Below are positions 2,180-39,278 of a DNA stretch of 42,560 bases, one piece after another (within the stretch, counting starts at the first letter, position 1; each line of letters opens with the position of its first letter). The position numbers and the translations under genes are program-made. The notes below the pieces were generated by a model. The model saw nothing but the letters and a program-made list of their open reading frames with translations, made no database searches and had not been told where the DNA came from. The DNA comes from an uncultured Eubacteriales bacterium (lineage in GTDB: Bacteria; Bacillota; Clostridia; Christensenellales; RUG350). Where the stretch lies: assembly GCA_900315995.1 (NCBI GenBank), contig ONBF01000020.1, forward strand, positions 1 to 42,560, given 5' to 3'.

Positions 2180-2989
2180 ATGGTCGTTTATATTGAATAC
2201 TTAATTTTCGACAATATGCTTGTTAATGTGCTGATAATAACGGTAACTTTACTTGCAATGAAGAAAAAAACGTTGTTTTTGAGAATTTTCGCGGGTAGCG
2301 CGGTGGGAACAGTTGCTGCCGTAATTATGCCGATAATTGAAATAAGCGGTATTATTTTGTTTATATATAAATTTGCCGCGTCTTTGATAATAGTTTCTTT
2401 AATTACAAAATATTTCAGAGTTAAAGAATACTTTATCGGACTAATACTTTTTTATTTGGTTTCATTAGTATTCGGCGGAATTGTATATGTTTTGTGTAAC
2501 AACAGTCTGACAATCGAAGGATATTATACACGAAGCGATATTAACATAGGAATACTTGCGCTTGCAGGACTTATAACAGTGTACATATTAAGACAATCAA
2601 GCGCATACATTTTTAGTGCCGAACAGAAAAAAAATAAATTGAAAGTCGTTGAAATCGTATCCGCGTCGGGTAAAAAAATCGGAGAATATGTAGCGTTGAT
2701 TGATACCGGAAATAATTTGTACTATATGGGGCGTCCCGTTATATTTATATCGAAACAATATGCAAACCGTATAAGCGGTGATGAAATAGGAAAAGTTACC
2801 GTAAACACCGTTGTCGGTTCTAAATGTATGGATATACGTATTATTCCGAAAATAAGAATTTCGTATCTTGATTCGTACATAGAGTATAATAACGTTTATT
2901 GTGCGATAAGCAGTGAGAAATTTGCTTATTACGATATAATCTTGCATTCGTCGATGGAGGTGTCAGATGTTAAAACGGTTAATGCGTAA
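2180..2989 (+). CDS. spoIIGA: Sporulation sigma-E factor processing peptidase SpoIIGA
   Basis: A 269-aa membrane aspartic protease that removes the N-terminal pro-sequence of pro-SigE in the mother cell after a signal from the forespore. The first ~130 residues are five or so hydrophobic segments; the C-terminal half is soluble and carries the catalytic motif LIDTGNNL (Asp in DTG). The opening [13 protein letters not shown] resembles the SpoIIGA N-terminus, which supports the ATG at 2180. No Shine-Dalgarno sequence precedes it, and a TATAAT lies six bases upstream, so the transcript may be leaderless. The 3' end overlaps sigE by 23 bases; this pairing of protease and substrate gene is the standard spoIIG operon. 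Confidence 0.93.
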
Positions 2990-3677
2990 AATACTCGGAT
3001 TCTTCGATATAAAAGTCTTTGAAGATAAGCTTGTCAACTTTATTGCGGGCGGTGCGGCGTTGCCGACGCCGTATACGCCCGACGAAGAACAAGCGGTGCT
3101 TGAAGAACTGAGAAACGGCAACGAGGAAGCTCGCGCAAAACTTATAGAGCATAATTTACGGCTTGTCGTATATATTGCGAAACGCTTTGAAAGTACGGGC
3201 GTTGATATAGAAGATTTAATATCAATCGGCAGTATAGGGCTTATTAAGGCTATCAACAGTTATAAAGCCGATAAAAACATAAAACTTGCAACTTACGCAA
3301 GCAGATGCATTGAAAACGAAATACTGATGTATTTGAGAAAAACTTCGAAAATTAAAGTCGAGGTATCTTTCGACGAGCCGCTTAACACGGATGCGGAAGG
3401 AAATATCTTGTCTATAAGCGACGTTCTCGGAACCGACCCCGATTGTGTATATAAAGACCTTGAAAATGAAGACGAAAAGGACATGCTTACCGAAACTTTC
3501 GCAAAATTGAACAGTCGGGAAAAACTTATTATGGAAATGCGCTATGGGCTTATGGGAAAAGAAGAGAAGACGCAAAAGGAAGTAGCGGATATGATGGGAA
3601 TATCTCAGTCGTACATATCAAGGCTTGAAAAGAAAATACTTATGCGGATGAAAAAAGAAATGAATAAACTCGTCTGA
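2967..3677 (+). CDS. sigE: RNA polymerase sporulation sigma factor SigE (pro-form)
   Basis: A 236-aa sigma-70 family factor for early mother-cell transcription. Region 2 ([39 protein letters not shown]) and the region 4 helix-turn-helix ([20 protein letters not shown]) are very close to Bacillus SigE. About 27 N-terminal residues precede the conserved ALPTP segment; they form an amphipathic basic pro-sequence like the one SpoIIGA cleaves. The GGAGG at 2956-2960, inside the end of spoIIGA, is correctly spaced from the ATG. The overlap suggests translational coupling between the protease and its substrate. A probable target in this window is the spoIIIA promoter near 34.64 kb. Confidence 0.96.
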
Positions 3678-3683
3678 GTTTTG

Positions 3684-3712
3684 GTATAAAAATGTCTTAA
3701 TAGTCAATTATA
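3684..3712 (+). promoter_or_regulatory. Candidate SigF/SigG-type promoter of sigG
   Basis: GTATA at 3684-3688 followed 16 bases later by CAATTATA (3705-3712). This resembles the forespore (SigF/SigG) pattern GYATA then a CATA/ATTA-type -10, and it stands just ahead of sigG, where such a promoter is expected from Bacillus and Clostridium. The match is partial. Confidence 0.35.
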
Positions 3713-3728
3713 GTAACGCGAGGGCATT

Positions 3729-4505
3729 ATGCGTAAAGTTACTATAATCGGCGTGGATACTGCGACGCTTCCGAAACTTACGTCGGAAGATACGAACAAA
3801 ATACTTAACGAAATCAAAACTACGGGCAATGAAGAACTGAAACAATATTTCATTAACGCGAATTTAAGACTTGTACTGAGTATCGTTCAAAGATTCAACA
3901 ACGACAAAGTGAGCAGCGACGACCTTTTTCAAGTAGGTTGCGTCGGACTGTTAAAAGCCGTAAATAATTTCGATACGTCTCTTAATGTAATGTTTTCTAC
4001 CTACGCGGTCCCTATGATTATAGGCGAGATAAAACGCTTTATGCGCGACGCAAACTCGTTAAAGGTGAGCAGAAAAATAAGAGATACGGCGTATCTTGCG
4101 CTTAAAGCAAAAGAAAAATTGAGACACGAGGGAAACGTAGAGCCGCAACTGTTTGAAATAGCGCAGGAACTCGATATGCCCGTACAAGATATAGAGCAAG
4201 CACTCGACGCAGTGTCCGACCCCGTATCGTTATATGAAAGCGTATACGGAGACGGGGAAGACAGTTTATTGTTGATGGAGCAGATATGCGACACAAAAAG
4301 CAATGAAGTAAATTGGATAGATAACGTTGAATTGACGGACGCCGTTGCTTTACTTCCCGAAAAGGAAAAGAAAATAATCGTTCTCAGATATTATATCGGC
4401 AAAACACAGATGGAAATCGCCGAAGAACTCGATATATCCCAAGCGCAAGTAAGTAGGATGGAGAAAAACGCATTACGGAAAATAAAAGAAAAAGTAAAAG
4501 AGTAA
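3729..4505 (+). CDS. sigG: RNA polymerase sporulation sigma factor SigG
   Basis: A 258-aa forespore-specific late sigma factor. Diagnostic stretches are the N-terminal VTIIGVDTATLPKLT, region 2 NLRLVLSIVQRFNN and DDLFQVGCVGLLKAV, STYAVPMIIGEIKRFMRD, and the region 4 helix-turn-helix MEIAEELDISQAQVSRMEK. SigF and SigG are close paralogues; the GVDT..LP start and the position right after sigE argue for SigG. The start has GAGGG four to five bases upstream. The 51-base gap after sigE holds a candidate forespore promoter, so sigG can be expressed separately from the spoIIG operon. Confidence 0.93.
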   Translation: MRKVTIIGVDTATLPKLTSEDTNKILNEIKTTGNEELKQYFINANLRLVLSIVQRFNNDKVSSDDLFQVGCVGLLKAVNNFDTSLNVMFSTYAVPMIIGEIKRFMRDANSLKVSRKIRDTAYLALKAKEKLRHEGNVEPQLFEIAQELDMPVQDIEQALDAVSDPVSLYESVYGDGEDSLLLMEQICDTKSNEVNWIDNVELTDAVALLPEKEKKIIVLRYYIGKTQMEIAEELDISQAQVSRMEKNALRKIKEKVKE

Positions 4506-7593: not shown

Positions 7594-7627
7594 CCGTTTT
7601 ATTCATATATTACTATGCATAAAACGG
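7594..7627. promoter_or_regulatory. 34-bp palindrome across the sigK promoter/leader region
   Basis: CCGTTTTAT at 7594-7602 pairs with ATAAAACGG at 7619-7627, then one T/C mismatch, then CATA/TATG, around a six-base centre TATTAC: 13 of 14 positions are symmetric. Its right edge takes in the first GG of the sigK ribosome-binding site GGAGG (7626-7630). There is no T run after it, so it is not a terminator. Inside it, CATATATT (7604-7611) matches a SigE-type -10 (CATACANT) at 7 of 8, though no convincing -35 is visible. It may be an operator, or, in read-through RNA from rluA, a hairpin hiding the ribosome-binding site. Confidence 0.5.
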
Positions 7628-7638
7628 AGGTTGTTATT

Positions 7639-8337
7639 TTGTTTGAAGGTCTTTTTAATCTGCTTTCCGACGTAGTTTTATTTTCTTCATATATCGGCGC
7701 AAAAAGTACTTTTCCACGTCCGTTATCGCCGGAAAAAGAACGGGAATATCTGTTAAAAGCGAAAGACGGAGATCAAGACGCAAAAGACGTTTTAATCAAA
7801 CATAATCTTCGTCTCGTTGTACATATCGTTAAAAAATACAACAACTATAACGACGTGGACGAATTGATTTCGGTCGGCAGCATCGGTCTTATTAAGGCGA
7901 TAAACACTTACGAGATGGGTAAGGGAACGCAACTCGTCACATACGCCGCAAGATGTATTGAAAACGAAATACTTATGACGCTGAGAGCAAATAAAAAGCT
8001 TAAAAGTAACGTTTCGATAGACGCGCCTATGGGAACGGATAAGGACGGAAACGAAATATCTTTAATTGACGTTTTGTGTTCGGAAGAGGACTGTATATTC
8101 GATTCGGTCGAACACAGTATGCTTTCGGATAAACTCTTTGAACTCGTTAAAAACGTTCTTGACGAAAGAGAATATCGAACAATCGTATTAAGATACGGAC
8201 TGAACGGCTCTCCCGCGCTTACTCAGCGAGAAGTCGCAAAACTGTTCGGAATATCCCGTTCGTACGTATCGAGAATAGAAAAACGAGCTCTCAATAAGAT
8301 TAAAGTTAATATTGATCGTGAAGAATTGTTTATTTAG
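7639..8337 (+). CDS. sigK: RNA polymerase sporulation sigma factor SigK (pro-form), uninterrupted
   Basis: A 232-aa late mother-cell sigma factor. Region 2 ([47 protein letters not shown]) and the C-terminal helix-turn-helix (EVAKLFGISRSYVSRIEKR) are SigK-like. The N-terminus LFEGLFNLLSDVVLFSSYIG is a short hydrophobic pro-sequence like that removed by the SpoIVFB protease. The TTG at 7639 is chosen because GGAGG lies eight bases upstream of it; the in-frame ATG at 7615 would place that GGAGG inside the gene. The gene is continuous, with no skin-type insertion. It is followed within about 40 bases by the RNase P RNA gene. Confidence 0.92.
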   Translation: MFEGLFNLLSDVVLFSSYIGAKSTFPRPLSPEKEREYLLKAKDGDQDAKDVLIKHNLRLVVHIVKKYNNYNDVDELISVGSIGLIKAINTYEMGKGTQLVTYAARCIENEILMTLRANKKLKSNVSIDAPMGTDKDGNEISLIDVLCSEEDCIFDSVEHSMLSDKLFELVKNVLDEREYRTIVLRYGLNGSPALTQREVAKLFGISRSYVSRIEKRALNKIKVNIDREELFI

Positions 8338-8372: not shown

Positions 8373-8378
8373 TATTAT

Positions 8379-8703
8379 GAGTTAATCGGATGATCGCGTG
8401 TAGTAATTATACGAGGAAAGTCCGAGCACCGCAGAGCAGGACGCCGGCTAACTACCGGTGAAGGCGACTTCAAGGAAAGTGCAACAGAGATATACCGCCG
8501 AATATATTCGGTAAGGGTGGAAAGGGGAGGTAAAAGCTCACCGACGGATTTGGTAACTTATCCGCCATGTAAACCCCGTTCGGTGCAAGACAGGAAGCGT
8601 TTTAACGCGGCTCGCCAGCTTCCGGTATTCGCTTGAACGCATTGGTAACAATGCGCCTAGATAGATGGTCATCCAAGACAGAACTCGGCTTACAGATTAA
8701 CTC
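8379..8703 (+). ncRNA. rnpB: RNase P RNA (bacterial class A type)
   Basis: The catalytic RNA that matures tRNA 5' ends. The ends are set by a perfect P1 helix, GAGTTAAT (8379-8386) with ATTAACTC (8696-8703). Conserved elements in order are GAGGAAAGTCCGAGC near 8412, a central AACAGAGA, AGGGTGGAAAGG near 8513, a CCCCGTTCGGTGCAAGA segment near 8575, AGATAGATGGTCATC near 8660, and the 3' signature ACAGAACTCGGCTTACAGA. The GTAAGGGTGGAAAGG/P8-P9 layout favours the ancestral A type over the Bacillus B type. Own promoter and terminator flank it. The RNase P modulator gene rnpM is also in the window at 25.9 kb. Confidence 0.95.
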
Positions 8704-8708
8704 TTTAT

Positions 8709-8748
8709 CGGAAGTCTTACGTCAAATCGTATGGCTTCCGTTTTTTTT
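8709..8748 (+). terminator. Terminator of rnpB
   Basis: CGGAAG (8709-8714) pairs with CTTCCG (8735-8740) around a loop that has a small inner ACG/CGT stem, followed by eight T. Confidence 0.85.
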
Positions 8749-8773: not shown

Positions 8774-11335
8774 ATGATTTATGTGTTATTGTTTTTATCG
8801 GTTGTATCGGCGTCGGTTCTTCTTATCGAAATCGTATCGCATTTCGATAAGTATATGTTTTTTGTTAAAACGTATTTTATGAAAACAAGATTGAAAAACG
8901 CAAAAGCAAAAACTTCACGAAATAAACGGATACTTAATTCCGAGTGTTCGAAATTGATTGATAATATTCTGTCTTACGGAATTGAATACGTAAGTAAAAA
9001 TCCGCCGAAAACTTTGATAAAGCTGTATCGGGGATATAGTAGATTAGACGGAGTGAAAATGTTCAAGGATATATTATACGAGTCGAAATTCGATGCGTCA
9101 GCATTCAAAACTTTGATACTCGATTCAAAACTCGACTATATGGAAAGCGTTTTATCCGATTATATTTATAAATATTGTCTGTTGGAAGAAATTGTTTCAA
9201 CCGTCCGAATTATCAATAAATGCCGATTTGAATTCGAGGTTGCGTGCGCGTTCAAAAGACTTATAAAAATAGCCGATTTAATAGAATTAAATGTTATTTT
9301 CGAGAGACCGAACGGTGTACGGGTATGGCTTGAAAATAACGGCTTTAATTATAAAAAAGGCGCATATTTGGTTTCAAATAAAATTTACAAAACGGAATAT
9401 AAAAGTTTGAAATTAAAATGCGAAGATACGGATAATATCATATTTGCGCTGAATAATCGTTTCAAAATAAATTCGGCGTCGACTTTAAGTATATATACGA
9501 ATTGCGGAGAAATTTTTTGTGAAGACGCTGTGTCGGACGGTGCGGTTGAGTATCCGTTTTATTTAGAATCGCAAAAATTAAAAAATGTATTCGGCAAAAA
9601 ATCTTTAATTTGTTTATCAGACAGCATCGAGATAAATTATGATTTGAATACGGATAAAGAGTTATTGATAAAATTTTCTTTCCCGTATTTTGAAAGTATC
9701 GGATTCGGAAATGGGATAATGAGATTTAAGAAGAGCGGACTGACGATGCTTTTGAAAAATTCAAGCATCGCTTATATCGAACGAATCAATAACAGTATAG
9801 AAGTGTATCTTAACGTTACGCAAGGGGGCTATAATCTTATATACGGAACAAGAGCGTTGATTACTATCGGTGATATGCAAAAAAAATTGTTTTCATTGTG
9901 TCAACCGGTTAAAATTCATACACTGCTTTCGGAATCGGAAAACAATATAAAATACAGAAAAAAATATTTTGATAATGACGGAAATTTATGTGAAATAAAT
10001 TATAAACAACGTAATGAACTCAATATTGAATTTGAAGATAAGCCGATATATCTCAAAAAAGTTATGTTTTTTGACAAAACGGAAACATATTATCAATTCG
10101 GAAATTATTCGATAACCGTTTCATGTGATTACGATAAAACGTATTACAATATAATTTCGGATGCAATAGATATTAAACGTATTTTTATAAATGCCGAAAA
10201 CGGAAATTTTACTGCCGATAAGAATACTTTGCTTTTTTGTCGCAACGGTGAAACAAAAAAAATTAAAATATACGGTACGGATCGTGTTTCAATCAAGAAC
10301 GGAATTATTACCGCCGCAATCAAAAATAAAATAAGTATTAAACTCGGAACCGAAAAAAACTCGTCATATATGCTTCCCAAGACGATTGAATTAAATTCGC
10401 CCGATTTGGCGTTGAATCTTTTATTGCGACATCCGCTTAAATTTCAGTTGATAGGCATAACGGCATACGATACCGAGCCGAAAGAGATAGGACTTGACGC
10501 ATTTATAACTATGTTAAGTGCGCATATTTATATATGTCCCGATATTGTAATGAGAGCAATAGACGATTTGTTTACCGTTGATTTCACGATTGATAAAGGG
10601 TTGTATTTCTTCAATCTTGTATTCGATTGTGTTAAAACCATGCAAAACGACGATCTTTTGTGTAATGCGGATAATTCATATAAAATAGAAAAATTTCTTT
10701 TGAACGGTTATCAACATATTATCGACGGTAAAGAAAAGTACGCGATATTGTTCTTAACCTGCGTAAGCGAGTTCATCCCGTATGCAACTTCCGAATCGAA
10801 AGCAAAACTTATCGACTATATGGAAAACGTCAAAAGAAAATACGCTTTGAATTACAAAGAAGTTTGTGAATTGAAAGAAGAGTATCCCGTTATTTATTAT
10901 TCCGATTCGGACGATGGCGTAATAAAAGATATAATTAAAATGCATGAATATTCAAAAAACAAAGATGACGTATACGATATATTAAATAAACTTAACTCGA
11001 TTAAAAATTATATTTTCGGACGATCGGATAATCCGTATTCGTTTTCAAACGACGGAAAAAAATACGATACGATTTGCGCTTCTTTATTTTACAGAGTGTT
11101 TTTAGCGGATATTATAGGAATAAAACACGATAAAGGAAAATTGAAAATCGAACCGAATTTACCTAAAAGCTGGGATTATTGCAACGCGGTATTTCATTAC
11201 GATAACGGCGAATATCATTTATGTTTTATCAAGGGCGATAAAAAATCCGTACTTTGCGACGGCGTTGCTTCCGCAAACGACTCTATACCGCTTATTGCGG
11301 ACGATACGAAATACGTTGAAGTATATTACGATTAA
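8774..11335 (+). CDS. Membrane-anchored protein with a strongly diverged GH94-like C-terminal half
   Basis: A protein of 853 aa if it starts at ATG 8774; an open frame runs back into rnpB, but a start there would lie inside the RNA and its terminator. The N-terminus is one hydrophobic helix (MIYVLLFLSVVSASVLLIEI), then a basic helical region and a long beta-rich middle. The last ~90 residues (LFYRVFLADIIGIKHDKGKL, then PNLPKSWD, ending IPLIADDTKYVEVYYD) follow the C-terminal pattern of GH94 phosphorylases (YR...E.ILGI...L.I.P.IP..W...PL). A segment near residues 540-620 recalls the GH94 (alpha/alpha)6 catalytic core, but the usual GGAYGFRDQ-type sequence is reduced to EIGLDAFITM. I infer a relative of cellobiose/chitobiose phosphorylases or of the GH94 part of cyclic beta-glucan synthases that has lost most catalytic residues; function unknown. 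No clear ribosome-binding site. Confidence 0.6.
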   Translation: MIYVLLFLSVVSASVLLIEIVSHFDKYMFFVKTYFMKTRLKNAKAKTSRNKRILNSECSKLIDNILSYGIEYVSKNPPKTLIKLYRGYSRLDGVKMFKDILYESKFDASAFKTLILDSKLDYMESVLSDYIYKYCLLEEIVSTVRIINKCRFEFEVACAFKRLIKIADLIELNVIFERPNGVRVWLENNGFNYKKGAYLVSNKIYKTEYKSLKLKCEDTDNIIFALNNRFKINSASTLSIYTNCGEIFCEDAVSDGAVEYPFYLESQKLKNVFGKKSLICLSDSIEINYDLNTDKELLIKFSFPYFESIGFGNGIMRFKKSGLTMLLKNSSIAYIERINNSIEVYLNVTQGGYNLIYGTRALITIGDMQKKLFSLCQPVKIHTLLSESENNIKYRKKYFDNDGNLCEINYKQRNELNIEFEDKPIYLKKVMFFDKTETYYQFGNYSITVSCDYDKTYYNIISDAIDIKRIFINAENGNFTADKNTLLFCRNGETKKIKIYGTDRVSIKNGIITAAIKNKISIKLGTEKNSSYMLPKTIELNSPDLALNLLLRHPLKFQLIGITAYDTEPKEIGLDAFITMLSAHIYICPDIVMRAIDDLFTVDFTIDKGLYFFNLVFDCVKTMQNDDLLCNADNSYKIEKFLLNGYQHIIDGKEKYAILFLTCVSEFIPYATSESKAKLIDYMENVKRKYALNYKEVCELKEEYPVIYYSDSDDGVIKDIIKMHEYSKNKDDVYDILNKLNSIKNYIFGRSDNPYSFSNDGKKYDTICASLFYRVFLADIIGIKHDKGKLKIEPNLPKSWDYCNAVFHYDNGEYHLCFIKGDKKSVLCDGVASANDSIPLIADDTKYVEVYYD

Positions 11336-11398: not shown

Positions 11399-11417
11399 TA
11401 ACTCGGAGTGATTGCAA

Positions 11418-12644
11418 ATGGATAATTTATTTGAAAATTTACATGACGATAAAAAACCGCTCGCGGAAAGGATGAGACCGAAAAATTTGAACGGATTCGT
11501 CGGTCAAAAACATATTCTCGGAAACGGAAAATTGTTAAGAAGATTGATTGAAGCAAAGCGCGTGCCGAGCGTAATATTCTACGGACCGCCCGGTACGGGC
11601 AAAACCACGCTTGCCGAAATAATAGCCGAAACCGCGGATTCGCAATTCGTTAAACTTAATGCCGTATCGAGCGGCGTCGCGGACGTTAAAGCTGTTATTG
11701 AACAAGCAAAAAAAGATTTTGAATTATACGGCAAAAAAACATATTTGCTTCTCGACGAGTGTCACAGATGGAGTAGAGCACAAAGTGATTCGTTGTTAGC
11801 CTCGCTTGAAAAAGGTTTTGTCAGTTTCATAGGCTGTACGACCGAAAACCCGTATTACAGTATGACGAGAGCAATAGTATCGAGATGTTCCGTTTTTGAA
11901 TTCAAAAGAATAGATTCAGAAGATATAAAGGAAGTTTTGAAACGGGCAATTGCCGCCGACAACGGATTAAATCGTTACAACGTCAGAATAGATGACGATG
12001 CGCTTGATTACTTTGCCGCCACTTGCGCGGGAGATATAAGAAGCGCGTTGAACGGTTTGGAACTCGGTGCGATTACAACGCCGTTAAATTCAGATTCCGA
12101 AATACATATTACCAAAGAAATAGCGGCAGAGTGTCTTCAAAAGAAAGCTTTAAGTCTCAATGAAAACACTTATTACCATCTTCTGAGTGCGTTTTGCAAA
12201 AGTTTAAGAGGTAGCGACGTTACGGCGGCGTTATATTATGCGAACCGCTTAATCGAAGCGGGGATAGAACCGCAGATTCTTGCGCGCAGAACAATAGCAC
12301 ATGCCTCCGAAGACGTCGGGATGAGTGATCCTATGGCTTTAATTCAAGCGTGCGCAAGTTTGTACGCGCTCGATAATCTCGGTATGCCCGAAGGAAATCT
12401 TGCTCTTACACAGGCAATAATTTATGTTTGTGAAGCAAAAAAAGACAATAACGTTGTAGTTGCTATGAATATGGCTCGGGATGACGCTGTCAATAATCCG
12501 GACGACAATATTCCCGAATATCTCAAAAATCATACCGAAGCAAGTAAATTTTATAAATATCCGCACGATTACGGCGGTTACGTGGAACAGCAGTACCTGC
12601 CTGACAGTCTTAAAAACAGAAATTATTATAAGAAAAAAAATTAG
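11418..12644 (+). CDS. rarA: Replication-associated recombination protein RarA (MgsA), clamp-loader-type AAA+ ATPase
   Basis: A 408-aa AAA+ ATPase that acts at stalled replication forks together with single-strand binding protein. It starts with the family signature PLAERMRPKNLNGFVGQKHIL, Walker A FYGPPGTGKTTLAEII, Walker B LLLDECHRWSRAQSD, the sensor-1 region GCTTENPYYSM and arginine finger SRCSVFEF. The C-terminal tetramerisation region has the MgsA pattern ARRTIAHASEDVGMSDP. The ATG at 11418 is nine bases from GGAG; a TTG two codons upstream is only three bases from it. It is a single gene between the GH94-like gene and rubrerythrin, both of which seem to be separate transcription units. 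Confidence 0.94.
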   Translation: MDNLFENLHDDKKPLAERMRPKNLNGFVGQKHILGNGKLLRRLIEAKRVPSVIFYGPPGTGKTTLAEIIAETADSQFVKLNAVSSGVADVKAVIEQAKKDFELYGKKTYLLLDECHRWSRAQSDSLLASLEKGFVSFIGCTTENPYYSMTRAIVSRCSVFEFKRIDSEDIKEVLKRAIAADNGLNRYNVRIDDDALDYFAATCAGDIRSALNGLELGAITTPLNSDSEIHITKEIAAECLQKKALSLNENTYYHLLSAFCKSLRGSDVTAALYYANRLIEAGIEPQILARRTIAHASEDVGMSDPMALIQACASLYALDNLGMPEGNLALTQAIIYVCEAKKDNNVVVAMNMARDDAVNNPDDNIPEYLKNHTEASKFYKYPHDYGGYVEQQYLPDSLKNRNYYKKKN

Positions 12645-34675: not shown

Positions 34676-35518
34676 ATGTTAAACGAAATATTACCGACTG
34701 AATATTTTGACGCAATCAGCAAGAATTGCAATCTGAGCGAATTGTATGAGATTCGTTTACAAAACGATAAGTATATTCAACTGTACGGACGCTTCGGAAA
34801 GAAGGTATTGAACGTTAAAGCGGACGAAAACGAAATAAAACATTGTATCGAGAGAGCGACTTGCGAGTCGATATACGCATATAATCACCAAATTCAAAAA
34901 GGATATATCGCTTGTTGCGACGGCATAAGAATCGGACTGGTGGGAGAAGCCGTTATCGAAAACAATTCGGTTAAAACAATAAAAAACATAAGCGGACTGG
35001 TGATTCGTATTCCGCACGAAATTATCGGGTGCGCCGAGTATATCATTTCAAAAATACGTTCAAATGACGAAATTAAAAACTCTTTGATTATTTCACCGCC
35101 CGGATGCGGTAAAACTACTGTTTTGAGAGATATAGCGCGGCTGCTTTCCGATAAATTCAACGTGCTGATAATAGACGAAAAAAACGAAATTTCGGCAACG
35201 GTCAACGGGCGTGCGAAACTCGACGTCGGAAACTCGTTGGTTATGCTTTATCATCCGAGAGAGTCGGGATATGAAACCGTAATAAGAAACACCGCGCCCG
35301 ACTGCATAATTACCGATGAAATATATTCGGACGAAGATATAAAACGTTTAGCCGTGGCAATCAAAAGCGGCGTTAAGATAATAACTTCGATTCATTCGGA
35401 TGAAAAACAGTTCGATAAACTCTTGTATCCTAAATTGAGTTTTTTTGATTTATATGTATTCTTGTCGAAAAATCCCGTCGGGAATATAAGCGCGGTACGG
35501 AGTTATGAACATGAATAG
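34676..35518 (+). CDS. spoIIIAA: Stage III sporulation protein AA (secretion-type ATPase)
   Basis: A 280-aa ATPase related to type II/IV secretion ATPases, made in the mother cell and powering or assembling the feeding-tube channel between mother cell and forespore. Walker A is SPPGCGKTTVLRDIARLL; Walker B-like residues lie in NVLIIDEKNE; the segment ARLDV/KLDVGNSL and TDEIYSDEDI follow. The protein is a little shorter than Bacillus SpoIIIAA (about 307 aa). Only a weak TAAGG precedes the ATG. First gene of eight tightly packed spoIIIA genes. Confidence 0.95.
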   Translation: MLNEILPTEYFDAISKNCNLSELYEIRLQNDKYIQLYGRFGKKVLNVKADENEIKHCIERATCESIYAYNHQIQKGYIACCDGIRIGLVGEAVIENNSVKTIKNISGLVIRIPHEIIGCAEYIISKIRSNDEIKNSLIISPPGCGKTTVLRDIARLLSDKFNVLIIDEKNEISATVNGRAKLDVGNSLVMLYHPRESGYETVIRNTAPDCIITDEIYSDEDIKRLAVAIKSGVKIITSIHSDEKQFDKLLYPKLSFFDLYVFLSKNPVGNISAVRSYEHE

Positions 35519-35993
35519 CATTGTTTTTGCCGGATGTATTATGCTTATAAGTTCATACATCGGTATTTATTTTAAGTTGTATTACAAAAAAAGAAACGCG
35601 TTGTTTTGTGATTTATCAAACTTTGCTAAGTTTATCAATCAGCGTATCAAAAGCACTCACGATTTAATCCCCGAAGTAATAGCTTCGTTTCACCCAAACT
35701 CCGAAGAGTTATCGAAAATCTGCAATAATCTCAATGATTATAAGAACAAAAAATGCGAATTATCGACGGTTTTCGATTCAAAATACATAAAATCCGAAAA
35801 AGATTTACTCATAAATTATTTCGAGAAACTCGGAAAAAACGATTTCGAGAACGAAATTCGATTGTCCGACGAATTTGTTGCTGAAACGGCTGAGATACAA
35901 ACGTTGACAAACTTTGAAGTGAAACAAAAAGGGGAGTTGATATTCAAATTGTGCATAATGGGCGGTCTTCTCGTGTCGATATTGATTGTTTGA
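35505..35993 (+). CDS. spoIIIAB: Stage III sporulation protein AB
   Basis: A 162-aa protein with a transmembrane helix at each end (IVFAGCIMLISSYIGIYFKL and LCIMGGLLVSILIV) and a helical cytoplasmic part between, resembling type II secretion GspF-like components. Overlaps spoIIIAA by 14 bases. Assigned mainly by position and hydropathy within an otherwise unambiguous operon. Confidence 0.9.
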   Translation: MNMNSIVFAGCIMLISSYIGIYFKLYYKKRNALFCDLSNFAKFINQRIKSTHDLIPEVIASFHPNSEELSKICNNLNDYKNKKCELSTVFDSKYIKSEKDLLINYFEKLGKNDFENEIRLSDEFVAETAEIQTLTNFEVKQKGELIFKLCIMGGLLVSILIV

Positions 35994-36000
35994 GGTGAAA

Positions 36001-36198
36001 ATGGAAATAGAAGTGATTTTCAAAATAGCGGCAATCGGAATAATCGCCGCTATTGTAAATTCATTATTGAAAAAGAGCGGTAAAGAAGAAATCGCAACGG
36101 CGGTAAGTATTGCGGCTATAATAATCGTCGTGTTTATGCTTGTCGATATGATAAGCGACTTGTTCGTAGATTTAAGAACGGTTTTTAAGTTGTACTGA
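36001..36198 (+). CDS. spoIIIAC: Stage III sporulation protein AC
   Basis: A 65-aa protein of two transmembrane helices (VIFKIAAIGIIAAIVNSLL and EIATAVSIAAIIIVVFMLVD) joined by a short basic loop, the form and length of SpoIIIAC. The ATG at 36001 directly follows GAGGTGAAA; the frame five codons upstream overlaps spoIIIAB without a ribosome-binding site. Its stop shares one base with the spoIIIAD start. Confidence 0.93.
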   Translation: MEIEVIFKIAAIGIIAAIVNSLLKKSGKEEIATAVSIAAIIIVVFMLVDMISDLFVDLRTVFKLY

Positions 36199-36584
36199 TG
36201 GAAATTCTGAGAGTAATTGGAATAGGTATAATAGGCGCAATTACGGTAACGATGTTGAAAACGTCGAAAAGTGAAGTCGCAATCGTCGTTTCGATTGCGA
36301 CCGGTATCGTAATAATTCTGTCGGTTATGAGCATATTCGGAGATACTCTTGAAAACATTGAAAGCATTATCGAAAAAACTCATATCGAACAAGGGTTGTA
36401 TTCAGGAATAATAAAGATTGTCGGAATCGGTTACATTGTCGAGTACTCGTCGAGTATCTGTGATGATTTTGATTGTAAAAGCATTTCGGCGAAAATAAAA
36501 TTTGCGGGTAAAGTAACGATATTTGCACTTTCGCTGCCTATCTTTAACTCGGTTATCAACGTTATATGCGAAATAATATATTAA
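36198..36584 (+). CDS. spoIIIAD: Stage III sporulation protein AD
   Basis: A 128-aa membrane protein whose N-terminal half repeats the SpoIIIAC pattern (VIGIGIIGAITVTMLKTSK, SIATGIVIILSVMSIF), followed by a conserved GYIVEYSSSICDDF segment and a last hydrophobic stretch. Translationally coupled to spoIIIAC (TGATG) and overlapping spoIIIAE by 19 bases. Confidence 0.93.
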   Translation: MEILRVIGIGIIGAITVTMLKTSKSEVAIVVSIATGIVIILSVMSIFGDTLENIESIIEKTHIEQGLYSGIIKIVGIGYIVEYSSSICDDFDCKSISAKIKFAGKVTIFALSLPIFNSVINVICEIIY

Positions 36585-37744
36585 TAAAAATAATTGTTCT
36601 GGCAATATTTACCGTAACGATATGCGGGGCTTGTACGACGTCGTCGGCGTATGCGGACAGCGAAACTCCGCAAAGTATCGAGGACAGCGTGTATGAACAG
36701 CTCGATAAATTGGATCTCGGTGATTTCGAAAAATTTGCGGATAAATACGGCGTATACGACGGAAGCATTAAAATTGCGGTTGAAAAAATATTAAACGGTT
36801 CGACAAACGTTTTATCAAGTTCGGGAATATCTTCTCTGTTTGACGCTTTAATAAAAGACTTTATCGGTTTTCTGCCCGCATTATTGAGCGTAATCGTTAT
36901 TGCATTCATTGGGGGGATACTGAAAAACAGCAAAAGCGGTTTCTTGAAAGGTTCGACTTCCGATGTCATTGATTTCGTATGCTTTGCGTCCGTTTTAACA
37001 ATAGTACTCGTATTCATAAAAGACTATTTTTATGAGGCGAAAAACATAATATCGGGATTAACCGAATTATCGGATATTACATTTCCTTTAATGTTAACAT
37101 TTATGGAAATTTCGGGCTCGGGAAACGCAATGAATACGATAACTTTTCTTTCAGGTACGTTTTCAAACGTTATTATGAACGCCATAACCTTCGTGGTGTT
37201 TCCGTTGATTCTTGCCGTAATTATTCTTAGCGTAGTGGGGAATTTGTCCGCATCGGTAAATTTGAACAGATTGAAAAAATCCGTTTCTTCAACAGCAAGC
37301 TGGCTGCTCGGAATAATGTTCGGACTGTATACAATAGTGCTTACGGGCTGCGGAATAGTGGGAATAAATATGGATAACATATCGATAAAAGCTATAAAAT
37401 TCGCATTATCGGGATATGTACCCGTTATAGGCGGATATTTATCAAGCGGTATGGACTATGTGCTGGCGGGAAGTATAATGATAAAAAATTCGGTCGGCTT
37501 TATAGTGCTTATTATGTTATTCTCATTAATTTTACTTCCCGCACTTAAAATACTGCTTTTTTCACTTGCGCTCGATTTAACATCGGGAATTATTTCTCCG
37601 ATAGGAGATCAAAGACAATGCGAAATGCTTTCGTCTTTAAGCGGAAGTCTTAAACTTCTCGTCGCAGTGATTCTCGGAGCGGGTTTTATATTCTTCATAA
37701 TGATTTTGTTCGCCATATCGGCGGGAAACGCGGGGATTGTATGA
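36566..37744 (+). CDS. spoIIIAE: Stage III sporulation protein AE
   Basis: A 392-aa polytopic membrane protein. It begins with a signal peptide (IIVLAIFTVTICGACTTSS, likely cleavage after AYA), an extracytoplasmic region of about 65 residues, then about seven hydrophobic helices; LTELSDITFPLMLTFMEISG and ISPIGDQRQCEMLSSLSGSL are conserved SpoIIIAE segments. It belongs to the putative channel or permease part of the complex. The start overlaps spoIIIAD, and the ribosome-binding site is weak, suggesting coupling. Confidence 0.95.
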   Translation: MRNNILIKIIVLAIFTVTICGACTTSSAYADSETPQSIEDSVYEQLDKLDLGDFEKFADKYGVYDGSIKIAVEKILNGSTNVLSSSGISSLFDALIKDFIGFLPALLSVIVIAFIGGILKNSKSGFLKGSTSDVIDFVCFASVLTIVLVFIKDYFYEAKNIISGLTELSDITFPLMLTFMEISGSGNAMNTITFLSGTFSNVIMNAITFVVFPLILAVIILSVVGNLSASVNLNRLKKSVSSTASWLLGIMFGLYTIVLTGCGIVGINMDNISIKAIKFALSGYVPVIGGYLSSGMDYVLAGSIMIKNSVGFIVLIMLFSLILLPALKILLFSLALDLTSGIISPIGDQRQCEMLSSLSGSLKLLVAVILGAGFIFFIMILFAISAGNAGIV

Positions 37745-38223
37745 CGTTTGCGTCCTATCTTTTGACAATAGTGGGAATAAGCGTCATAGGCGTTATTATC
37801 GAAATAATAATGCCCGACGGAGAAATGTATAAATTCGTTAAAGGCATTTTCGCGTTATTCGTAACGTTTACGATAATAGCCCCCGTGCCGAAACTCTTAA
37901 ACAAAAGCGAAACCGTAACGGCTCCCGAATATAAAACTGACGTCGAATATTCATACGACGAAGAATACGTACGGTTTGTTAACGAATTATACGTCGATAA
38001 TCAAGTAAGGGAAGCCGAGCGGGATATAAAACGTTTAACGGGTATCGATACGGACGTGGATATGGTTTGCGAAAATAAAAAAATTCTTGAAATAAACGTA
38101 AAAGCGGACAAACAGGTTATAAGTGAAAACGACGGACATATATTATTTACAGACAATGTGAAAATGTATTTCGTAACGAAATTCAATATCGAAGCAAAAC
38201 AGGTAAACGTGATATGGAAATAG
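37741..38223 (+). CDS. spoIIIAF: Stage III sporulation protein AF
   Basis: A 160-aa protein with two N-terminal transmembrane helices (LLTIVGISVIGVIIEIIMP and GIFALFVTFTIIAPVP) and a C-terminal soluble ring-building-motif-like domain (REAERDIKRLTGIDTDVDMV...ILEINVKAD). ATGA overlap with spoIIIAE, ten-base overlap with spoIIIAG. Confidence 0.92.
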   Translation: MTFASYLLTIVGISVIGVIIEIIMPDGEMYKFVKGIFALFVTFTIIAPVPKLLNKSETVTAPEYKTDVEYSYDEEYVRFVNELYVDNQVREAERDIKRLTGIDTDVDMVCENKKILEINVKADKQVISENDGHILFTDNVKMYFVTKFNIEAKQVNVIWK

Positions 38224-38789
38224 TAAAAAAAACTCAAAAAAACAGCGAAAAACCGAAAATTGCAGGGATTATGGAAAAAATCAAAAATATTAAACATATT
38301 GAAGTCATTATCGCAATATGTTTAATTGTAGCCGTTATCGGAATATACTTATCGGGCACAGAAAAAAACACGAAAACAAATACGGAAGAAAAAACCGTTT
38401 CGCAAAACAATACGGACGTATATGAAGAAAAATTGAAAGCGGTATTATCGGAAATCAACGGCGCGGGTAAAGTAGACGTAATGATTACGTACAATAGCAG
38501 CAGTGAAATAATTACCGCAAACACAACGACAGTTTCGAGCGATAAAACAAATTCGAGCGATAGGTCGGCGGAGAGTAAAAACGAGACGGTATCGCCGGTG
38601 CTTATCAATCAATCGGGCACGACAACGCCGTTAATCGTAAAAGAAATTTTACCTGACGTTAAAGGCGTTATAGTGATTGCCGAAGGCGCGGATGATATAA
38701 AAGTCAGGCTTAACTTGGTAAACGCAGTGTGTACGGCACTTGCCGTAGACGCTGACAAAGTGGAAATTTTTACAAAAAACAAGGCATAA
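38214..38789 (+). CDS. spoIIIAG: Stage III sporulation protein AG
   Basis: A 191-aa single-pass protein: a basic cytoplasmic N-terminus, one helix (HIEVIIAICLIVAVIGIYLS), a Ser/Thr-rich stretch, and a ring-building domain (EEKLKAVLSEINGAGKVDVMITYNS...IVKEILPDVKGVIVIAEGADDIKVRLNLV, quoted in parts). In Bacillus SpoIIIAG forms a large ring in the intermembrane space of the feeding tube. Confidence 0.93.
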   Translation: MEIVKKTQKNSEKPKIAGIMEKIKNIKHIEVIIAICLIVAVIGIYLSGTEKNTKTNTEEKTVSQNNTDVYEEKLKAVLSEINGAGKVDVMITYNSSSEIITANTTTVSSDKTNSSDRSAESKNETVSPVLINQSGTTTPLIVKEILPDVKGVIVIAEGADDIKVRLNLVNAVCTALAVDADKVEIFTKNKA

Positions 38790-38801
38790 CAGGAGGTAAA
38801 T

Positions 38802-39278
38802 ATGTCAAAAAAGAAAAAGATTGTTTTATTGTCGGTGATGGTATTGTTATTGATTGTAAGCGGCGTCCTGAATTTCGTTATGACGGACAAAAACATCAAT
38901 ACGGTTGTGGACGATTCGTCAAAGACCGCGGCAAGTTTTTTCAGCACTTATAAGACGGACAGAGACGGGACGAGAAATCAAGAGATTTTGTATCTCGACG
39001 CAATAATCGCAAGTGAGAACTCGACCGAAGCCGCGAAAACCGCCGCCGAGGAAATGAGACTCGAAGTCTGTAAAACAATGGAAACCGAACTTGTTCTCGA
39101 ATCACTCATTAAAGCTAAGGGGTTTGATGACGCAATCGTTACGATTTCCAGCAGTAAAGTCAATGTAATCGTCAACGACGCGGAGTTGAAAAGCGACGAA
39201 ATAGCTCAAATACTAAGCATCGTAACGGAAGAAACGGCATATTCACCCGCAAATGTAAATATTATGAGTTATAACTGA
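38802..39278 (+). CDS. spoIIIAH: Stage III sporulation protein AH
   Basis: A 158-aa single-pass protein with an N-terminal helix (KIVLLSVMVLLLIVSGVLNF) and a YscJ/FliF-like C-terminal domain (ESLIKAKGFDDAIVTISSSKVNVIVND). In Bacillus it binds SpoIIQ from the forespore to build the intercellular channel. AGGAGG precedes the start. Last gene of the operon; no terminator is visible before the next promoter. Confidence 0.94.
   Translation: MSKKKKIVLLSVMVLLLIVSGVLNFVMTDKNINTVVDDSSKTAASFFSTYKTDRDGTRNQEILYLDAIIASENSTEAAKTAAEEMRLEVCKTMETELVLESLIKAKGFDDAIVTISSSKVNVIVNDAELKSDEIAQILSIVTEETAYSPANVNIMSYN

Follow-up and report, generated by a model that had tools for sequence, protein, structure and literature searches.

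A shortened protein beside rarA in an uncultured Eubacteriales bacterium, probably descended from a cyclic-glucan synthase and no longer catalytic

An 853-aa protein is encoded at positions 8774 to 11335 (forward strand, stop included) of a 42,560-nucleotide contig stretch, here called the window, from an uncultured Eubacteriales bacterium. Based on the list of open reading frames, hhalign comparisons, a reading of the locus and a profile search of the genome, we consider it likely that this gene descends from that of a cyclic-glucan synthase, was reduced in size, probably no longer encodes an active enzyme, and has been retained in the form of a shorter membrane protein.

The gene runs from ATG to stop over 853 codons and has no internal stop. 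Because the other frames over the same stretch are full of stops (65 and 75 in the other forward frames; 38, 35, and 55 in the reverse frames), the open frame is not a matter of chance: it is a real ORF, and the earlier note was right that a frame behind rnpB has been kept open. The upstream neighbour is rnpB (8378–8708, forward; class A RNase P RNA, Rfam RF00010, 261.9 bits), which ends 65 bases before the ATG and is followed on its 3' side by a terminator-like hairpin with a T8 tail (8709–8748, forward), found by eye and missing from the terminator scan because its loop is long. This putative rnpB terminator leaves 25 bases before the ATG at 8774, upstream of which no clear ribosome-binding site was seen on reading the sequence; a TTG start at 8633 was dropped, as it lies inside rnpB. 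The first-codon-position GC content (GC1) of the gene is the lowest among the 19 window genes checked. Downstream, 76 bases separate the stop from rarA (11412–12644, forward; identified from the ORF list and comparison with relatives), which has an alternative ATG with a better ribosome-binding site at 11418 and which served as locus marker in the relatives. Elsewhere in the window, the translations from 2180–4505 and 34676–39278 include what we take to be SpoIIGA, SigE, SigG, and a spoIIIA-type cluster, and 7615–8337 presumably encodes a SigK-like factor. The window genome is only 1.3 Mb yet retains these apparent sporulation genes.

The C-terminal end of the protein points to its ancestry. 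Residues 728–850 (10955–11323, forward), which correspond to the last barrel helices and the C-terminal beta domain of the GH94 half, match a profile of 11 full-length synthase-type proteins (hhalign E 1.5e-10, Prob 96.9), and this match runs to the very end of the long proteins. When profile A3 was searched over the whole window genome, the gene at 8774–11335 was the sole match (E 1.7e-14, profile positions 2413–2504). The last ~125 residues thus match cyclic beta-1,2-glucan synthases at their GH94-type C-terminus. Since the synthase profile hits nothing else in the window genome, production of such a glucan by this route is improbable there. A search with the 853-aa protein of 61 genomes (its own and 60 relatives) gave matches in 14, itself included; the 13 non-self matches cover parts of residues 719–852, mostly within frames of ~1,500–2,900 aa, and the best four in other genomes (G019, G038, G009, and G046) all lie directly 5' of rarA. 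Ancestry from a stand-alone phosphorylase was rejected, given that the slot holds the long synthase in relatives and that the four best matches are such copies. For the 853-aa protein, no match over the cut-offs was obtained with Pfam and none with NCBIfam; the GH94 phosphorylase family PF17167 was absent at E up to 10, the sole GH-type Pfam match was sub-cut-off (PF03633, E 0.16), and DUF4367 matched weakly (E 0.018), under its cut-off. A single-sequence search of the PDB returned nothing significant (best E 0.15, 4zle).

We surveyed the slot before rarA at 59 rarA loci in 58 of 60 relatives (G033 contributing two loci, G031 and G051 being left out), of which G001, G008, G020, and G027 offer less than 1 kb of sequence before rarA. 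The gene directly before rarA encodes a full synthase-type protein of ~2,400–2,500 aa in 8 of the 58 relatives (one contig-cut), and a comparison of the profile of the full-length slot protein with the solved Agrobacterium synthase gives E = 0. Two of the relatives, G009 and G038, show the order ylmC-like gene, nrdR, pseudouridine-synthase-like gene, sigK-like gene, rnpB, synthase, rarA, which is the order of the window with rnpB inverted. With rarA downstream and a sigK-like gene and rnpB upstream, as in these two genomes, the window gene occupies the orthologous slot. Whereas rnpB points in the same direction as the following gene in the window (8378–8708), it points in the opposite direction in three relatives (L017 2813–3132, L018 11135–11454, and L020 11260–11592), and is therefore apparently inverted in the window.

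Besides the window, the rarA slot holds a shortened form in 5 of the 58 relatives. G002, which belongs to the same family as the window, has a 655-aa slot protein that resembles the window protein over its C-terminal end (BLAST E 7e-7, last 93 residues; direct comparison E 1e-5, last ~91 residues). The others, spread over four further families, are proteins of 1,622 aa in G033 (profile E 1.5e-60), 481 aa in G057 (profile E 1.4e-22), 1,391 aa in G059 (two collinear hhalign matches, E 4e-9 and 6e-9) and, as a weaker case, 444 aa in G053 (hhalign E 1.6e-4, none of 100 shuffles scoring as high). Shortened forms also adjoin rarA in G077, G198, and G219, outside the 58. Among the shortened slot proteins, only that of G002 matches the window protein directly at significance; direct comparison with the G033, G059, G053, and G029/G052 proteins gave nothing significant. 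About 44–45 of the 58 relatives have no recognisable counterpart before rarA, some of them having little sequence there, and G001, the same family as the window again, has no such gene within the 435 bases available. In G002, two further GH94-type stretches look broken: one at C8:29735–31341 lies in two separate frames, and another on C41 (L240) has stops inside the match.

In G029 and G052, whose genomes are of 0.8–0.9 Mb, the gene immediately preceding rarA encodes a protein of ~400 aa that lacks a membrane helix (408 aa, L059 10436–11662; 397 aa, L060 10501–11694). These genes were not counted as shortened forms, their profile match being weak (E 0.0025–0.011); they are possibly a still smaller synthase remnant, as judged from sequence. 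The adjoining genes of 465 and 453 aa gave no match in this analysis.

Full and shortened loci are interspersed in the RarA tree, where G059 groups with the full-length G007 and G033 with the full-length G019 and G046. This suggests several reductions; as this tree is of one gene and splits family f1, we do not claim a number of reduction events from it.

A wider search, in 297 genomes drawn from a larger order, bears on whether such shortened frames are maintained. In family f3, an N-terminal match was found in 15 genomes, within open frames of 463–512 aa. Of these forms, 14 (L222–L235) all carry the N-terminal match, and 11 of them also match the profile near its C-terminus; each of these second matches is weak by itself (i-Evalues 1.5e-4 to 1.1), but their place never varies. 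The fifteenth form, in G057 (L066), has both matches (second i-Evalue 0.43). Between the two matches, ~2,100 residues are missing, and only the forms of G057 and G077 among the 15 adjoin rarA. We compared pN and pS within four genera, leaving out G290 (frame cut at a contig end) and G057 (no congener with such a form in the set). For the 43 f3 pairs inside genera g36 and g63, pN was 0.23–0.46 and pS 0.62–0.80, the latter near saturation, and the closest pairs gave pN/pS of ~0.28–0.38. As pN lies well under a near-saturated pS, the f3 short forms are constrained although fast, and they are under purifying selection. The two pairs of 1,242–1,622-aa forms in family f32 gave pN/pS of 0.63 and 0.70, and are less informative with pS near saturation.

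The main rival explanation, and a fair one, is that the reduced synthase no longer functions in this species and that its frame stays open only through recent or slow decay. It draws on the low GC1 and the weak start region, on the opposite direction of rnpB in relatives, by which the upstream region would have been rearranged, and on the broken-looking GH94-type stretches on C41 and C8 of G002; moreover, the family of the window is represented by three genomes in our set, and the single gene that can be compared with the 853-aa one shares 24% identity with it. We nevertheless think it unlikely, since 853 codons remain open beside frames with 65 and 75 stops, a shortened yet open form sits in the same slot of G002, and the short forms of f3 are under purifying selection.

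A weaker match extends beyond the C-terminus into the catalytic core. Residues 537–686 (10382–10831, forward) form a collinear alignment with the beginning of the GH94 catalytic domain at a sub-threshold hhalign E of 0.0016–0.004; the core score of 36.1 exceeds the shuffle maximum of 27.2, and none of 200 shuffles of residues 501–727 scored as high. Further upstream, the sequence is silent: residues 1–530 have no detectable similarity to the synthase, two runs of a comparison with the synthase N-terminal domain gave scores within those of shuffles, and the middle of the protein against the long-protein profile gave hits of E 0.1 or worse (hhalign). Because no sequence similarity is detectable there, the descent of residues 1–530 rests on position and predicted secondary structure. 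The AlphaFold model of the 853-aa protein from its single sequence is unusable as a structure (pLDDT 34.8); its secondary structure is helical at 1–170, beta at 175–540, helical at 543–778, and beta again at 783–851. This helix-beta-helix-beta order would be, with low confidence, that expected of the C-terminal half of the synthase behind a helical N-terminus, and, judged by its order alone, the mostly beta stretch of residues 175–540 (9296–10393, forward) would correspond to the GH94 supersandwich.

A second model, of residues 500–853, was computed with 31 long relatives as the alignment (A4, i.e. 31 of 49 motif-carrying C-termini among 80 loci) and reached pLDDT 60.1, with ~78–96 over residues 770–853, ~87 at 540–549, and mostly <60 elsewhere. 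It matches GH94 phosphorylases (Foldseek E 3e-8; 8ho7_A at Z 16.2, rmsd 4.2, 264 aligned), but neither this model nor its fold matches are independent evidence, as the model was steered by the 31 GH94-type rows. As for the (alpha/alpha)6 barrel, the C-terminal domain is confident in this steered model and the barrel part stays mostly at pLDDT <60.

The lack of any match between residues 1–530 and the synthase could also mean that an unrelated membrane protein gained only the C-terminal GH94 stretch by fusion. We regard this as improbable: the core remnant at 537–686 is collinear with the C-terminal match, the gene occupies the synthase's own slot, and the predicted helix-beta-helix-beta order, albeit from a low-confidence model, is that of the synthase's ends.

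The active site of the core is largely gone. The seven active-site strings YQAGGA, RDQLQD, HWW, ENGGQYTH, EPYV, WYTG, and DWND are all absent from the 853-aa protein, and the conserved segment YQAGGAYGFRDQLQD of the long protein faces unrelated sequence in the alignment. Among the columns at least 90% identical in the 31 full-length relatives, 29 of 137 are kept, with 18 of 112 in the barrel part and 11 of 25 in the C-terminal part. The helical part is also shorter, with ~240 residues compared with ~410 in the full-length GH94 domain. Asn625-Asp626 can be aligned to the ND of DWND, whose last Asp we take to be the catalytic acid, so that one active-site residue may stay in place. That pair might be thought to mark a still active GH94-type enzyme with a rebuilt active site, which we find very hard to credit given the gap-rich stretch around it (pLDDT <50), the few near-invariant barrel columns kept, the seven missing strings, and the shortened helical part. 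Much of what the earlier note had claimed from the letters agrees with these results, namely a GH94-like end of ~90 residues (found both by hhalign and by the genome profile), a segment near residues 540–620 recalling the catalytic core (now collinear over 537–686 and unequalled by the 200 shuffles), and an active-site sequence largely lost.

The protein carries a single membrane helix at residues 4–22 (8783–8839, forward), as determined by hydropathy and charge count. The 25 residues that follow have a net charge of +6, and there is no further hydrophobic helix, so the charge rule predicts a protein facing the cytoplasm. From this and from the known topology of the synthase, of which every soluble domain is cytoplasmic in Agrobacterium (PMC10901819), we infer that the N-terminal helix anchors the product in the membrane, the remainder lying in the cytoplasm. 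The earlier note had correctly seen one N-terminal membrane helix and had proposed an envelope protein; its description as a worn GH94-like C-terminal half with one helix, a lost active site, and an open frame stands, whereas the envelope placement is doubtful in view of the charge and of the Agrobacterium topology.

Returning to descent from a synthase with retention of the shortened product, the most plausible course of events would begin with an ancestor of ~2,500 residues, composed of an N-terminal helical domain, a glycosyltransferase, a glucoamylase-like cyclisation domain, and the GH94 half, whose gene would have sat between the sigK-like gene/rnpB and rarA. In the lineage of the window, the glycosyltransferase and cyclisation domains would have gone, and the GH94 barrel would have been shortened with loss of most of its active site, leaving the membrane helix and the C-terminal GH94 domain. 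Without catalysis, such a product would most likely act as a scaffold, or as a glycan- or protein-binding platform.

Work on the Agrobacterium synthase offers a precedent. In that enzyme (PMC10901819), the N-terminal domain is a side scaffold contacting the glucan primer. Growth suffers only slightly when the GH94 acid is mutated, but function is lost on truncation in the C-terminal half, and the GH94 half serves as a scaffold without needing its catalytic acid. Because that half still matters with its acid mutated, scaffolding or glycan binding would be the most economical function for the window protein. That other lineages seem to have shortened the same protein also hints at a non-enzymatic role for the remainder.

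Beyond the single gene, we tentatively propose, with somewhat more doubt than assurance, that hollowed-out cyclic-glucan synthases form a class found across several families of a single clostridial order. These would have been cut down probably more than once, would have lost the synthesising and cyclising domains, and would now work at the membrane, on its cytoplasmic side, as scaffolds or as sensors of glycans; the window gene would represent one stage. The Agrobacterium work left open the role of the non-catalytic parts of the synthase; lineages apparently without the enzymatic middle, which keep one or both ends and do so under selection in at least one family, would offer that role in isolation. 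They would also show how a giant multidomain enzyme can be reduced, without leaving its locus, to one third or one fifth of its former size. Annotators should also bear in mind that a frame next to rarA with no domain hit may be a relic of the synthase. In the open-access library searched, we found nothing on glycoside-hydrolase or GH94/synthase pseudoenzymes, and nothing joining glucan synthase with Clostridia and NdvB, or with Christensenellales.

Among known systems, the solved synthase (PDB 8rf0, 8rf9) and the ~2,500-aa slot proteins share with the window protein the C-terminal residues, the collinear core remnant, the N-terminal membrane helix, the predicted cytoplasmic placement and, for the relatives' proteins, the rarA slot. 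In contrast to them, the window protein is a third as long, shows neither a glycosyltransferase nor a cyclisation domain in searches with Pfam and the synthase profile (the latter domain defines GH189 in the Thermoanaerobacter italicus synthase, PMC10834661), and has an unrecognisable N-terminus and a GH94 part that has lost most active-site residues. The GH94 phosphorylases for cellobiose, chitobiose, and cellobionic acid resemble it in the C-terminal fold of the steered model and in the weak 4zle hit (E 0.15), but the window protein differs from them by its shortened barrel, lost active site, and membrane helix, and synteny points to the synthase. Finally, the forms of f3 (~455–500 aa), f32 (1,242–1,622 aa), and G059 (1,391 aa) are likewise shortened, carry an N-terminal helix, and in several cases stand beside rarA; unlike the window protein, they have a recognisable N-terminal domain (profile E down to ~1e-24), and those of f3 are without the GH94 barrel.
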